Shown here piece after piece: positions 31,769 to 40,885 of a stretch of 64,000 nucleotides of DNA (position 1 is its first letter; every line of letters starts with the position of its first letter). The stretch is from Phycisphaerales bacterium. Its GTDB lineage: Bacteria > Planctomycetota > Phycisphaerae > Phycisphaerales > UBA1924. The stretch covers positions 1 through 64,000 of the forward strand of contig JASBRY010000005.1 of NCBI GenBank assembly GCA_030149165.1, in the 5' to 3' direction. Under the pieces are notes generated by a model. That model was not told the origin of the DNA and made no database searches. It saw nothing but the letters and a program-made list of their open reading frames with translations. The translations under genes and the position numbers were made by a program.

Positions 31769-34700
31769 TCAAGCCCCCTTTGGGCTCGTTTCCGCGAGCG
31801 CCCCATCTTCCTCGTCTTCGTACTCATCTTCCTCGTATTCGTCCTCGTACTCGGCGTCGTCGTCCTCTTCGTCTTCCTCGTACTCCGCTTCAGCGTCGGG
31901 GTCTTCGTCGACCTCGTACTCATCTTCGTCGAGGTCCTCAGGATCGATCGGATTGCCGTCCTCGTCGACATACTCGTACTCGACTTCTTCGTCATCTTCC
32001 TCTTCGTCGTCCTCGGCTTCGTCGACGAGTTCCTCATCCTCATCTTCTTCGTACTCGTCCTCATCCTCGTCTTCCGCAACGAGCTCAGGATCCTCCTCGT
32101 CCTCATCCTCGGCTTCGTCTTCTTCGAGTTCATCGACTTCGAGTGCTTCGTCTTCGAGTGCTTCGTCTTCGTACTCTTCCTCGTCTTCTTCGATCTCGTC
32201 AGATGGCTCTTCGTCAGCAAGCTCCTCGTCCTCAGCATCCTCCTCGTCCACTGAAGATCCGAGCACCTCGACCGCATGCTGATTCACCCCAACCTCGAAC
32301 GGTACCTCGTCCAGATCTGAATCCGCATCCGCAGATTCCTCAGCAGTCGTTTCCTCATCATGATCAATAAAGATCGTCGCTTGGTGCTCGTCCTCCGGAT
32401 CAGTGCCATACGACAACTCGGTCTCGGCTGGTTCTGCAGTTGCCGACGAACCTCCGGATCGTTGTTCCGCTTCCATCTCCGCCGCGATCTCTTTCATGAG
32501 ATCCCATTCCTCGACAGAAATTAGCACATCGCGTGCGACCGACCCCTTGTGATCGGAGATGATCCCAGCGATCCCCATCAGATCGATCAATCGGCTCGCG
32601 CGTGTGTACCCGATCGCGAGTCGGCGCTGCAGCAGCGACACCGATCCACGCTTGGTTTCCAGCACGATCTCCACAGCACGATCAAACAACGGATCTTCCT
32701 GCGCCGCCGCGAGCGAGGCGCTGGAGTTGTTCTCTGTAGCAAGCAAGCGATCCTCATCACTGCTGTGCTCACCCTTGACCTGCATGAGCGAGCGCTCGAA
32801 GCTCGGCGCCGCGATGTCCTTGAGGAACTTGACCACGCGCCGGATTTCTTTGTCGTCCACAAGCGTCCCCTGCGCTCTGCTGAGCTTGTGACTGCTTGGA
32901 GACAACTGCAACATATCGCCCTGACCAAGCAGCAGTTCCCCGCCCTTCTGGTCCAGAACGATGCGCGAGTCCATCCCAGAAGCAACCTTGAACGCGATCC
33001 GGCAAGGCATGTTCGACTTGATCAGACCCGTCACCACATTCGCCTGCGGCCGCTGCGTCGCGAGGATCAGGTGGATCCCGACCGCACGCGCCTTCTGCGC
33101 GATACGGATGATCGCGCCCTCGACCTCTTTATTGGTCATCATGAGGTCCGCGAGCTCGTCGATAATGAACACCATGTACGGCAGTTTCTTGGGAGTCCGT
33201 GCCGCCTTCTCCTCCGTCTGGATATCGAGTCGTTCCTTGAGCTCGTCCCACTCCAGCTCGTTGTATCCCGCGATATCGCGCACGCCCGCGGATGCGAGCA
33301 GCTCGTAGCGCTCGTCCATCTTCGTGACCGCCCATTCGAGAATCGCCGCGGCTTTGGGCATCTCCGTCACCACCGGACACATCAGATGCGGGATGTCTTT
33401 GAACTGACTCATCTCGACCATCTTTGGATCGACCAGCACCAGCTTGAGCTCATCAGGGCGCTTCGTGTACAAGAAGCTCATGATGATCGTGTTCATGCAC
33501 ACCGACTTACCCGAGCCGGTGGTCCCCGCGATCAGCATGTGAGGCATCTTCGTGAGATCCGAGATCAACGGATCACCCGCCGCGTCCTTGCCAAGGAACA
33601 TCGGGAGCTTCATCCCCTCGAACTTGTTGCGATTGCTCATCAGCTCTTTGAGGCGCACGCGTTCCTTCGTTGGATTCGGCACTTCAATCCCGATCGTGTC
33701 ACGCCCCTCCATATTGGACACCACACGGATGTTCACGGCCTTAAGCGCGCGCGCCAGATCGCTCTCGATCGCGTTGATCTGCGAGACCTTCGTGCCTGGA
33801 GCGAGACGGATGTGGTAGAGCGTGATCGCGGGACCCGATTCGATGTCCACGACCTCGCCGTCGATCTTGTATTGCGTCAGCGCGTGCTCGAGCGATTCCG
33901 CTTGATTGCGCACGAGCGTTTCCAGCTTCTCGTTGAATCCGACCTCTGGTTCTTCGAGCAGATCCATTCTCGGGAACTTGTATCCCTCAAGCGACTGCGC
34001 GTTCTGGAACTCCGCGAGGTCCTCGTCGGTCGCCATCTGTTTGTTGTCTTGCGCGAATCGGACCGGGAGCGCCTCGATCTTCTCGCGAAGTTTGTCGCGA
34101 TCAAACACCTGCGGCGCGCCGACGACATCGTCCTCGTCGTCTTCCTCGATCTCATCACTCTCGATCGGTTGAGGGACCGGCTTGACCACACGCTTGGGTT
34201 TGCTCGCTCTTGGACGCGGCTCTTCTTCCGGTTCAGGTTTGACCTCGACCATCGTGTCATCGATGTCGTTCACCCGCACCATCACAGGCTTGGTCTTGCG
34301 CATCAGTCCGGTCAGACCACCAAGCAATCCACCTCCTGCTTTGCGTGTCCCCGATGACGCGACATCCGCGACACCATTGGCGCGAGCCGCGGCGGATCCC
34401 GCGAGCTGTCCGGCGCCTCGACCTGTCACGGCAAGCGCCGGCGCGAGCTTGTTCCACACCGCGATCGGGACTTCCCAGAGATACTTATCACAAGTCACGA
34501 GCAATCCGATGACGGTCAGCACACCGACCCAGACCAAAGTACCAGGGACCGCGAATCGTGGGACGAGTTCTCCAGCGCCCAATCCTCCGATCGTCCCGCC
34601 GCTGAGTCCTGGGATGACTCCCCAGTTCGGGACGAGCACGCCGAGCAGTGTGCACAGCGAAGCCGTGAGCACGAGCGCTCCAACCGCACGGACCCCGGGC

Positions 34701-35041
34701 TGTGTCATCGGACGAGCGATGACTTTCAGAATCAGCATCACGAGCGCGAACACCATCGGGATCACGATCCCGAGCCCGAAGAGCCGGAGCAAGCCGTAGG
34801 ACACATGCGCCCCAATCGGACCGGTCCAGTTCTGCGTCAACTCGTTGTGCGGATAGACGACATGCGACGGCGCATCAGCGGCGTTGAAGCTTACCAGTCC
34901 AGCGAACAGGAACACCCACACGGCACCCAACGCGAGCCAACCCACGCGAGACGCGAGGATCCACCCCTCTGTAGGGGGTTCTGATCGGTCCGAGACCTTG
35001 TAAGGCTTCCGCGATGCACGCTTCTTGGTAGTCTTTGCCAT
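31769..35041 (-). CDS. ftsK: DNA translocase FtsK with long acidic C-terminal tail
   Basis: This 1090-residue septal ATPase pumps chromosomal DNA during division and aids dimer resolution. About four membrane helices lie in the first 200 residues ('GWLALGAVWVFLFAGLVSF' and others). A charged linker follows (about 230-340). The RecA-like motor has Walker A 'IAGTTGSGKSVCMNTI' and Walker B 'YMVFIIDELADLMM'. The DNA-reading winged-helix gamma domain 'DPLFDRAVEIVLETKRGSVSLLQRRLAIGYTRASRLIDLM' lies near 775-850. Normally gamma ends the protein. Here about 200 further residues follow, and the last ~160 are about two-thirds Asp and Glu by hand count. The long plus-strand ORFs in this stretch are shadows of that acidic codon run. 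Confidence 0.94.
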   Translation of the reverse strand: MAKTTKKRASRKPYKVSDRSEPPTEGWILASRVGWLALGAVWVFLFAGLVSFNAADAPSHVVYPHNELTQNWTGPIGAHVSYGLLRLFGLGIVIPMVFALVMLILKVIARPMTQPGVRAVGALVLTASLCTLLGVLVPNWGVIPGLSGGTIGGLGAGELVPRFAVPGTLVWVGVLTVIGLLVTCDKYLWEVPIAVWNKLAPALAVTGRGAGQLAGSAAARANGVADVASSGTRKAGGGLLGGLTGLMRKTKPVMVRVNDIDDTMVEVKPEPEEEPRPRASKPKRVVKPVPQPIESDEIEEDDEDDVVGAPQVFDRDKLREKIEALPVRFAQDNKQMATDEDLAEFQNAQSLEGYKFPRMDLLEEPEVGFNEKLETLVRNQAESLEHALTQYKIDGEVVDIESGPAITLYHIRLAPGTKVSQINAIESDLARALKAVNIRVVSNMEGRDTIGIEVPNPTKERVRLKELMSNRNKFEGMKLPMFLGKDAAGDPLISDLTKMPHMLIAGTTGSGKSVCMNTIIMSFLYTKRPDELKLVLVDPKMVEMSQFKDIPHLMCPVVTEMPKAAAILEWAVTKMDERYELLASAGVRDIAGYNELEWDELKERLDIQTEEKAARTPKKLPYMVFIIDELADLMMTNKEVEGAIIRIAQKARAVGIHLILATQRPQANVVTGLIKSNMPCRIAFKVASGMDSRIVLDQKGGELLLGQGDMLQLSPSSHKLSRAQGTLVDDKEIRRVVKFLKDIAAPSFERSLMQVKGEHSSDEDRLLATENNSSASLAAAQEDPLFDRAVEIVLETKRGSVSLLQRRLAIGYTRASRLIDLMGIAGIISDHKGSVARDVLISVEEWDLMKEIAAEMEAEQRSGGSSATAEPAETELSYGTDPEDEHQATIFIDHDEETTAEESADADSDLDEVPFEVGVNQHAVEVLGSSVDEEDAEDEELADEEPSDEIEEDEEEYEDEALEDEALEVDELEEDEAEDEDEEDPELVAEDEDEDEYEEDEDEELVDEAEDDEEEDDEEVEYEYVDEDGNPIDPEDLDEDEYEVDEDPDAEAEYEEDEEDDDAEYEDEYEEDEYEDEEDGALAETSPKGA

Positions 35042-36861: not shown

Positions 36862-37362
36862 ATGACCAGCAACAATCCAGAACACATCAACGCTCCAGAG
36901 ATGACGATCATCGGTCGCGACACCCAGATCAAGGGTGAGATGTTCTTCGAAAAATCCGCACGCATCCTCGGCTCATTCGAGGGCAAGATCACCGCACAAG
37001 GCGAAGTGCAGATCTCCAGTGGTGCTAACTGCAACGCTGCGATCGAAGCACAACGCGTTATCGTCGACGGCCAAGTCAACGGCCCGATCTCAGCGCACGA
37101 GCAACTCACACTCACTGAGAACGCACGAGTCCAAGGCGATCTGACCGCCGGGACCCTCGTCGTCGCGGAAGGCGCGAGCTTCGTTGGTCACTGCAATGTC
37201 GGACCAGCCGCGCAGGAAATCCTCAACGGAACACAAAGCACAACGAACACAGCTCCAGCGTCCAATCAGGAACTCAAAGGCAGCAACCTGACCACCAAGC
37301 TCGATCTGACCCCGCCTTGGGCAAACCAGACGAACCAGCAGCCGCAGACCCAGTCGGCATAA
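36862..37362 (+). CDS. Bactofilin
   Basis: This polymer-forming cytoskeletal protein of about 166 residues has the bactofilin beta-helix core: 'MTIIGRDTQIKGEMFFEKSARILGSFEGKITAQGEVQISSGANCNAAIEAQRVIVDGQVNGPISAHEQLTLTENARVQGDLTAGTLVVAEGASFVGHCN'. Bactofilins form filaments that help shape cells or anchor other proteins at the membrane. Short polar tails flank the core. The track ORF begins at 36829; GGGAGG five bases before the ATG at 36862 decides the start. A second, zinc-ribbon bactofilin follows after a terminator-like hairpin. Confidence 0.93.
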   Translation: MTSNNPEHINAPEMTIIGRDTQIKGEMFFEKSARILGSFEGKITAQGEVQISSGANCNAAIEAQRVIVDGQVNGPISAHEQLTLTENARVQGDLTAGTLVVAEGASFVGHCNVGPAAQEILNGTQSTTNTAPASNQELKGSNLTTKLDLTPPWANQTNQQPQTQSA

Positions 37363-37410
37363 GACTGCTCTGTTTCTGACATCCCAATATCAAGCAGACC
37401 ACCCATCCCT

Positions 37411-37445
37411 GGCCGGTCTCGGTCAACATCGAGCCGGCCGTTTTT
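37411..37445 (+). terminator. Terminator or attenuator directly before the next start codon
   Basis: GGCCGG(T)CTCG pairs with CGAGCCGGCC (one bulged T) around GTCAACAT and is followed by GTTTTT. The T tract runs straight into the ATG of the next gene at 37446. Confidence 0.75.
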
Positions 37446-38063
37446 ATGGCGTCATTCTTCAAGCCACCCCGATTCCTGATCCGTGAGCGTGCCGCGCCGC
37501 GTCAGCAATCGACCGCGCCTGTCGAACACACCTGCTACCACTGCGCCAAACAATCACTCCATTCACCCTTTGCGCAGACCGCGTCGTGCCCCCACTGCGC
37601 CCAGCGCCTCCAGCTCGGAGACATCCACATCACAAATGGACATTGGGGGACCTCGATCCAGACCACTGGATCCGTCACGATCGACCAAGGCGCGCAGGTG
37701 CAGGTCAACCTCATCATCTGCTCCGGAAACCTGCGAATCTCTGGAAAGGTCCACGCGATGTGCATCGCTGGAGGACAGACAATCATCGACTCAACAGCGG
37801 ATGTGCAAGGCGGGATCCGCACACCTCGCCTGATCCTGGAACCCGGATCAACTGTGCGAGGTTGCTTGATCGAGACCCAATCGCGAGCACTGGGACAGAT
37901 CGATGTTGAATCCGCGATGCGTACCGCGCCCGGGAAGGGGCAAGCGGCACAGATCGAGATCAAGCCACTCTCGAATCCGATCGCTCATGACAAGCACATC
38001 GCCGCACGAATCTACCCAACCGTCGACGGCCCAAGACAAGCGAGCTTCCGCGTCGTATCCTAA
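37446..38063 (+). CDS. Bactofilin-like protein with N-terminal zinc ribbon
   Basis: This 205-residue protein begins with about 28 basic residues, then a zinc ribbon 'CYHCAKQSLHSPFAQTASCPHC' (CxxC-x15-CxxC). A right-handed beta-helix of bactofilin type follows: 'GHWGTSIQTTGSVTIDQGAQVQVNLIICSGNLRISGKVHAMCIAGGQTIIDSTADVQGGIRTPRLILEPGSTVRGCLIE'. The ribbon could bind nucleic acid or another protein and target this filament subunit. No Shine-Dalgarno sequence is seen because the upstream bases are the terminator hairpin, so the start is less certain. It is paired with the canonical bactofilin and followed 4 bases later by bioY. Confidence 0.82.
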   Translation: MASFFKPPRFLIRERAAPRQQSTAPVEHTCYHCAKQSLHSPFAQTASCPHCAQRLQLGDIHITNGHWGTSIQTTGSVTIDQGAQVQVNLIICSGNLRISGKVHAMCIAGGQTIIDSTADVQGGIRTPRLILEPGSTVRGCLIETQSRALGQIDVESAMRTAPGKGQAAQIEIKPLSNPIAHDKHIAARIYPTVDGPRQASFRVVS

Positions 38064-39774: not shown

Positions 39775-40190
39775 TCCTCGAGCACGCTCTCGATTTGTAA
39801 CCCGTTGGTGATCGTCTTCTGTACTGGACACGCGTTGGCGATCTCCTTGAGCCGCGCACGCTGGGATTCATCCAGATCCCCCTCAAAGCTCAACGAGATC
39901 TCAATCAGCTCCGGCTCACCACGCCCATTTGGACGCGAGTGCTCAAGATCCAAACGCACAGACTGCAGGTCCCACCCCTTCCGCTCCGCATACATCTTCA
40001 CAGTAATCGCTTTGCACGCACCGAGTGATCCGAGCAAGAGCGCGTACGGATCGGGCGCTGAATCCGCGCCGCCCAGCGAGCCGGGCTCGTCGAGATAAAA
40101 AGTATGCCCCCCAGACTGCACCTCTGTCCGATACGGCTCTGTCCCGATCGTCACTGTCGCGGCTTTGTTGACTGTTTGTTGTTCACTCAT
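39771..40190 (-). CDS. OsmC/Ohr family peroxide-defence protein
   Basis: This 139-residue protein follows the OsmC pattern: 'HTFYLDEPGSLGGADSAPDPYALLLGSLGACKAITVKMYAERKGWDLQSVRLDLEHSR' with the first active cysteine, and 'LKEIANACPVQKTITNGLQIES' with the second. The Cys pair reduces organic hydroperoxides in this family. The OsmC subfamily fits better than Ohr because of the SLGACKAI and CPVQKTI motifs. Its start overlaps the stop of the upstream zinc-ribbon gene by 4 bases (ATGA), so the two are probably co-translated. Confidence 0.92.
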   Translation of the reverse strand: MSEQQTVNKAATVTIGTEPYRTEVQSGGHTFYLDEPGSLGGADSAPDPYALLLGSLGACKAITVKMYAERKGWDLQSVRLDLEHSRPNGRGEPELIEISLSFEGDLDESQRARLKEIANACPVQKTITNGLQIESVLED

Positions 40191-40885
40191 ACAGAACTGA
40201 ACTCCGGAATGTGCAAATTATTCAATCGCTCAATCAACTCCTGCTCCTCGGCGATGGATTCGCCTCGAACGAGCTTCTCCAGTGCCTCTCCGACCATCTG
40301 CAGATCGATCTGCTGACAGCGGAATCCGCCGGACAGCAGCACCTCGCGCTTACCACGCTCATCGAACTGCACCACACTCATCGATGCCCACACCCGACTC
40401 ACCGGCTTGAGCGTCACTCCCGGATTCACACCATCCCACGATCGAAACTCGCGCACGCTCGGATCCGCGCCGACAGGCCAACGCGAGAACCCGCCTTGCA
40501 CGAAGGTGAAGAACTCCGACCCAACACCCTTCTTGCTCGGACTCGTCAGCGCCATCCCGACGACCCCAGCGATCAACGCCGCGAGGATGACGAGCGCGAT
40601 GATCGGAGAGTTGATGAACAAGATCGCGATCAAGTTCCCATACAAGAACGCGACGATCGCGATCACGATCCACACCGCGCGTCTCCACGCAGGTCCAGCG
40701 GATTTCTTCGCAACCCCCGCGATCTGCAAGCCGCTTAAACCATGCTCGAACGGCAAGCCACACTCAGGACATGAACCGGGCGCGGGAATCCCTTCAAGCG
40801 AATACCCGCACCCGAGACAATCCTCAGGACGCTCCACGACCCTTGGGAATGGGAGCGGTTCATTCTTCTTTTTCTTCTTTGCCAT
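40187..40885 (-). CDS. Zinc-ribbon membrane protein of unknown function
   Basis: This 232-residue protein starts with a lysine-rich stretch (MAKKKKKNEP). A zinc ribbon 'CLGCGYSLEGIPAPGSCPECG' follows, of a kind repeated in many planctomycete membrane proteins, then two adjacent transmembrane helices ('RAVWIVIAIVAFLYGNLIAILFI' and 'PIIALVILAALIAGVVGMALT'). The last 120 residues form a soluble domain with no recognised motif. The function is unknown. It overlaps the OsmC gene by 4 bases. Confidence 0.75.
   Translation of the reverse strand: MAKKKKKNEPLPFPRVVERPEDCLGCGYSLEGIPAPGSCPECGLPFEHGLSGLQIAGVAKKSAGPAWRRAVWIVIAIVAFLYGNLIAILFINSPIIALVILAALIAGVVGMALTSPSKKGVGSEFFTFVQGGFSRWPVGADPSVREFRSWDGVNPGVTLKPVSRVWASMSVVQFDERGKREVLLSGGFRCQQIDLQMVGEALEKLVRGESIAEEQELIERLNNLHIPEFSSV

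Follow-up and report, generated by a model that had tools for sequence, protein, structure and literature searches.

Judged by sequence, a conserved two-gene module is present in many planctomycetes, composed of a filament-type bactofilin and a shortened bactofilin that carries a probable N-terminal zinc ribbon. We describe it here from a stretch of 64,000 nucleotides of a Phycisphaerales bacterium (GenBank assembly GCA_030149165.1, contig JASBRY010000005.1, positions 1 to 64,000), hereafter the window, where both genes lie on the forward strand. The upstream gene, partner A (36862..37362), encodes a canonical bactofilin of 166 amino acids, as the first-pass annotation of this DNA had claimed: it matches the Bactofilin family PF04519 with 93.5 bits along profile columns 1-97, and has a short acidic N-terminal tail devoid of a membrane-targeting motif. 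The stop codon of partner A is followed after 83 bases by the start of partner B (37446..38063), which is open for 205 codons and encodes 205 amino acids. The same annotation had placed a CYHC...CPHC motif ahead of a bactofilin helix in this protein, which holds: C30-YH-C33-x14-C48-PH-C51 (residues 30-51, 37533..37598) precedes a PF04519 match at residues 59-139. A PF04519 search of the 2.84-Mb assembly, a genome of Phycisphaeraceae type, gave no bactofilins other than these two. A Phycisphaeraceae metagenome-assembled genome (MAG) encodes a protein 93% identical to partner B, and a Phycisphaerales MAG one that is 48% identical. The open-access literature searched yielded neither an account of ribbon bactofilins nor one of bactofilin pairs in planctomycetes, which does not prove that none exists.

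Partner B is a bactofilin by profile and by fold, yet not an ordinary member of the family, because it does not have the full-length domain with its N-to-N contact. The PF04519 match (40.4 bits against a curated cut-off of 27.9, E 3.6e-10) enters the profile only at column 18 and spans columns 18-95 of 98, and all 40 aligned ribbon proteins match the family at E <= 0.1. AlphaFold2 (AF2) was run with three sequences (those of the window and of loci L003 and L004), and the better of the two models, covering residues 20-155, shows a beta-helix starting at about residue 54-58 with predicted local distance difference test (pLDDT) values of 82-93. A Foldseek search with the model places the three bactofilin entries as the top three PDB folds, the best being 6rib (probability 1.00 and a modest E of 0.026). 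The helix, assigned to residues 59-143 (37620..37874), is shortened: hhalign pairs partner B with residues 42-119 of the canonical protein only (E 8.6e-19), and the ribbon protein alignment does not contain the ~27 residues with which the canonical domain begins. Sites in the N-to-N interface that were mutated in alphaproteobacterial BacA (PMC12364344) map by alignment to residues about 17-27 of partner A, a stretch that is absent from the alignment of partner B; these residue numbers come from a hand count, with an uncertain offset between species. The opposite face is kept. The C-to-C contact residue corresponds to F130 in Caulobacter and F105 in Thermus (PMC12364344). At this position 32 of 38 canonical partners have an aromatic residue, and 39 of 40 ribbon proteins have Leu, Ile, Phe or Val, which is V137 in the window. 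Partner B resembles the bactofilins of Caulobacter crescentus and Thermus thermophilus in its Pfam match, its modelled beta-helix and its hydrophobic C-to-C residue, but differs from them in having, in the alignment, a four-cysteine (C4) ribbon instead of the first ~27 domain residues; in this lineage the full-length domain is supplied by a separate protein, partner A.

Recurrence of the pair was analyzed in two genome samples from the Planctomycetota, one drawn from the phylum and one from the class. PF04519 matches are present in 71 of 294 genomes of the phylum sample, with a recurrent pattern: a truncated match lies on the same strand as a full-length one and a few hundred bases beyond it. 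Of 38 such paired loci that were taken, 37 have CxxC-x14-CxxC in the second gene, and in the other, L031, this place is N-masked. For co-occurrence, partner A was scored as a PF04519 match starting at profile column 1-3 and partner B as a match to the ribbon alignment (A1) covering both ribbon and helix; lists were read by hand among the matches listed, to which all the following counts refer, and single genomes may be misfiled. The class sample contains 82 genomes with both partners, 8 with A only, 4 with B only and 205 with neither, and the phylum sample 48, 11, 0 and 236, respectively. The two genes mostly form an adjacent pair but are unlinked in much of one family; several genomes of family f95 keep both of them far apart, as in G295, where a single contig carries B near 3.38 Mb and A near 3.80 Mb, and likewise within one contig of G568. 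The family of the window includes genera with the two genes and genera with neither, plus one genome that has A only, which suggests that the two are gained or lost together. The functional pairing with the neighbour that had been proposed is therefore sustained by conserved adjacency, by strong co-occurrence, and by co-occurrence that persists where the genes are unlinked. A cultured type strain, Phycisphaera mikurensis NBRC 102666, has the pair as well (genome G421, recognised by its plasmid NC_017081; pair at locus L094). Two genomes hold two separate canonical plus ribbon pairs each (L072 and L073 in G566; L009 and L057 in G242). A tree built from 97 columns places all 85 ribbon proteins on one side of one split, but with support 0.13, and no weight is given to it. 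Searches of plasmid and viral collections, with one ribbon protein each, gave no relatives.

The architecture of partner B recurs in the Planctomycetota. The set comprises 85 ribbon proteins including that of the window, one of them N-masked at the motif, and CxxC-x14-CxxC is kept in all 84 readable members, always with exactly 14 residues between the pairs, including genes unlinked to partner A (L074-L077) and f96 genes in genomes with no detected partner A (L078-L081). In the alignment of 40 members, where mean column identity is 21%, the four cysteines and three helix glycines are the only invariant columns. Such invariance at this level of identity argues that the motif is not a product of chance. 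Concerning its nature, the four-cysteine segment is a probable zinc ribbon, a label that relies on the invariance of the motif together with weak profile matches to the RPB12, RpoP and L43 ribbons (E 0.015-0.03), while AF2 left it unresolved, with pLDDT < 50 in both models. No Pfam ribbon family scores above its cut-off in partner B of the window; several match other members, with E down to 1.4e-5. The surrounding pattern, RxVxCYHC..VxxRAxSVxCPHCxxRV, is ribbon-like as well, and the ribbon core has a mean net charge of +2.4. The C4 ribbons of RPB12, RpoP and L43e share the CxxC...CxxC arrangement at similar spacing, but they belong to separate proteins with other partners, and we make no claim of homology. 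Family f48 proteins (L012, L015, L017, L018, L021) present two tandem CxxC-x14-CxxC ribbons ahead of the helix; among the genomes that encode them, G088 consists of one contig of 4,406,153 bases.

Ahead of the ribbon, partner B of the window starts with the hydrophobic and basic peptide MASFFKPPRFLIRERAAPR (37446..37502), which is membrane-targeting-like and has 17 of 19 residues invariant among the window, L003 and L004. The tail, MASFFKPPRFL(I/M)R, is strongly conserved in this lineage even though L004 is only about 50% identical overall, and its codons differ synonymously between the window, L004 and L060. Start codons were assigned preferring an ATG with an upstream purine-rich site, and this conservation at the protein level makes it very probable that translation starts at 37446. 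Across 70 pairs, the tails of partner A average 9.7 residues with a net charge of -1.2, and those of partner B 17.0 residues with +2.3. At the other end, the C-terminal tail of partner B (37881..38060) is modelled by AF2 with low confidence and contains a motif, PGxGxAAQIEIKP, kept in both L003 and L004.

The start codon of partner B is directly abutted by a GC-rich hairpin (37410-37440) and five T residues, together spanning 37410..37445 on the forward strand, which look like an intrinsic terminator. The element was spotted by eye, then checked, and examined in this lineage only: it is conserved in the window, L003, L004 and L060, the stem varying on both of its arms at positions that still pair, and its leading sequence is found a single time in the genome. 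A consensus scan does not report the hairpin in this form because its stem is bulged. As hairpin and T-tract reach the ATG, there is no room between them for an ordinary ribosome-binding site. In this lineage, the hairpin may keep partner B scarcer than partner A.

The explanation we favour, with a probability of roughly 0.4, is that the two proteins divide the labour within one bactofilin module: partner A forms the filament, and partner B is a ribbon-capped accessory that ends or tethers it. Partner A would polymerise into the filament. In partner B, the first helix turns, which elsewhere make the N-to-N contact, would be replaced by a zinc-binding C4 ribbon, with the C-to-C contact remaining hydrophobic. 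Partner B could then dock on the C-face of partner A, ending its filaments or decorating their ends, and would present the ribbon and the basic N-terminal tail, here membrane-targeting-like, to the envelope, to a nucleic acid or to a client protein. In favour of such docking, BacA mutants in the N-to-N interface still self-interact, which was ascribed to the C-to-C face (PMC12364344). The terminator-like hairpin would hold partner B below partner A, at low stoichiometry, in this lineage. Since the aligned N-to-N contact positions are missing, partner B is more likely a cap or tether than an alternating subunit. A bolder form of this reading, in which a phylum-wide end-piece has given up the filament face at its N-terminus in exchange for a zinc ribbon, caps at the C-face and ties filament ends to membrane, nucleic acid or client, is possible but doubtful. 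A likeness in role is seen in BacC of Rhodomicrobium vannielii, which has an extra cadherin domain and whose localisation depends on BacA (PMC10259793): like BacC, partner B would be an accessory bactofilin that bears an additional domain and rides on a main one. However, the added domain of BacC is cadherin-like and not a ribbon, and a common origin is unsupported, so the likeness is in role only.

Several observations weigh against the division of labour. The Fisher p-values for co-occurrence are extreme, but they ignore shared ancestry. Partner A is found without partner B in 8 class-sample and 11 phylum-sample genomes, and partner B without a detected partner A in four f96 genomes that are 93-94% complete (G296, G319, G349 and G380), so that partner B can work without partner A or with something else. 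Most tails of partner B are basic yet not membrane-targeting-like. Partner B may also build a replacement first turn after the ribbon, since strands are predicted at residues 60-67, and the placement of the ribbon as a cap follows from sequence order only, AF2 having left the ribbon unplaced.

The four f96 genomes bear on another possibility, that partner B is a ribbon-led adaptor, which binds a nucleic acid or protein client with its helix riding on any bactofilin or on itself, capping being incidental. The positive charge of the ribbon core, the basic tails, the tandem ribbons of f48 and the resemblance to RPB12, RpoP and L43 ribbons all go in its direction; the strong tie to partner A elsewhere goes in the other, and those nucleic-acid ribbon matches are weak and prove no target. 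We regard it as unlikely, though deserving consideration.

The first-pass annotation had instead proposed that both proteins co-polymerise in one filament, with the ribbon decorating its length. Conserved adjacency and co-occurrence fit this idea, as does the retention of most of the helix and of the C-face by partner B, and in Rhodomicrobium vannielii BacA interacts and co-localises with BacB and BacC (PMC10259793). Nevertheless, partner B is devoid of the aligned N-to-N positions, so the ribbon would have to form a new N-face for the two to alternate. With these positions missing and with four B-only genomes in one family, a simple mixed filament is not supported as stated, and we consider it rather improbable.

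A third alternative takes partner B as the membrane anchor that planctomycete partner A proteins do not have. Most bactofilins share the membrane-targeting consensus MFSKKKK (PMC12448750), and no similar peptide is present in partner A; MASFFKPPRFL, with which the ribbon protein starts in the genus of the window, has similar chemistry in different letters, and other ribbon proteins start with MxLFxK/R. A loose membrane-targeting pattern fits none of 70 tails of partner A, but also only 11 of 83 of partner B, and the f52 genomes that have partner A only show a partner A without the motif too, which makes this reading quite unlikely. Bactofilins that bear a membrane-targeting sequence or a transmembrane helix at the N-terminus (PMC12448750) likewise have an addition there that links the filament elsewhere; their tether belongs to the polymerising protein, whereas in the planctomycete pair it would sit on a second, shortened protein, ribbon included. 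Finally, that the cysteines form no zinc site, being instead a redox or disulfide pair or vestigial, is very improbable, since the doubt raised by AF2 and by the Pfam cut-offs in the window is set against a spacing fixed in 84 proteins of roughly 20% identity, the Pfam ribbon matches of other members and the ribbon-like surroundings.

Regarding the genomic surroundings, a BioY gene (PF02632; 38068-38700, forward strand) begins 5 bases past the stop codon of partner B, an order also present in L003, L004 and L062. The flanking genes searched in the window (FtsK, FG-GAP, BioY, pilin-like, DCC1 and OsmC) do not include the adjoining M23 peptidase gene of bactofilin-LmdC operons. Among the other loci and clusters examined there is no widely common neighbour, and genes shared besides the pair are lineage-specific. 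A link to MreB was uninformative, as MreB is nearly universal in the class. The FtsK-type DNA translocase (31769-35041, reverse strand) has a long, E/D-rich acidic tail past the gamma domain. A protein encoded at 40187-40885 (reverse strand) shows two CxxC pairs close to the N-terminus (CLGC...CPEC) and probable membrane segments, with no Pfam match.

Bactofilin filaments are non-polar and nucleotide-free, and to our knowledge the control of their length and attachment is largely open. On the bolder, end-piece reading, partner B would serve filaments without polarity as a subunit dedicated to binding their ends. As the planctomycete partner A proteins examined have no membrane-targeting motif, partner B may be their tether. 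Since Phycisphaera mikurensis NBRC 102666 carries the pair, a named organism is available for its study. A conserved, one-faced partner with a binding domain of its own offers a candidate, open to direct test, for the factor that ends and anchors bactofilin filaments.
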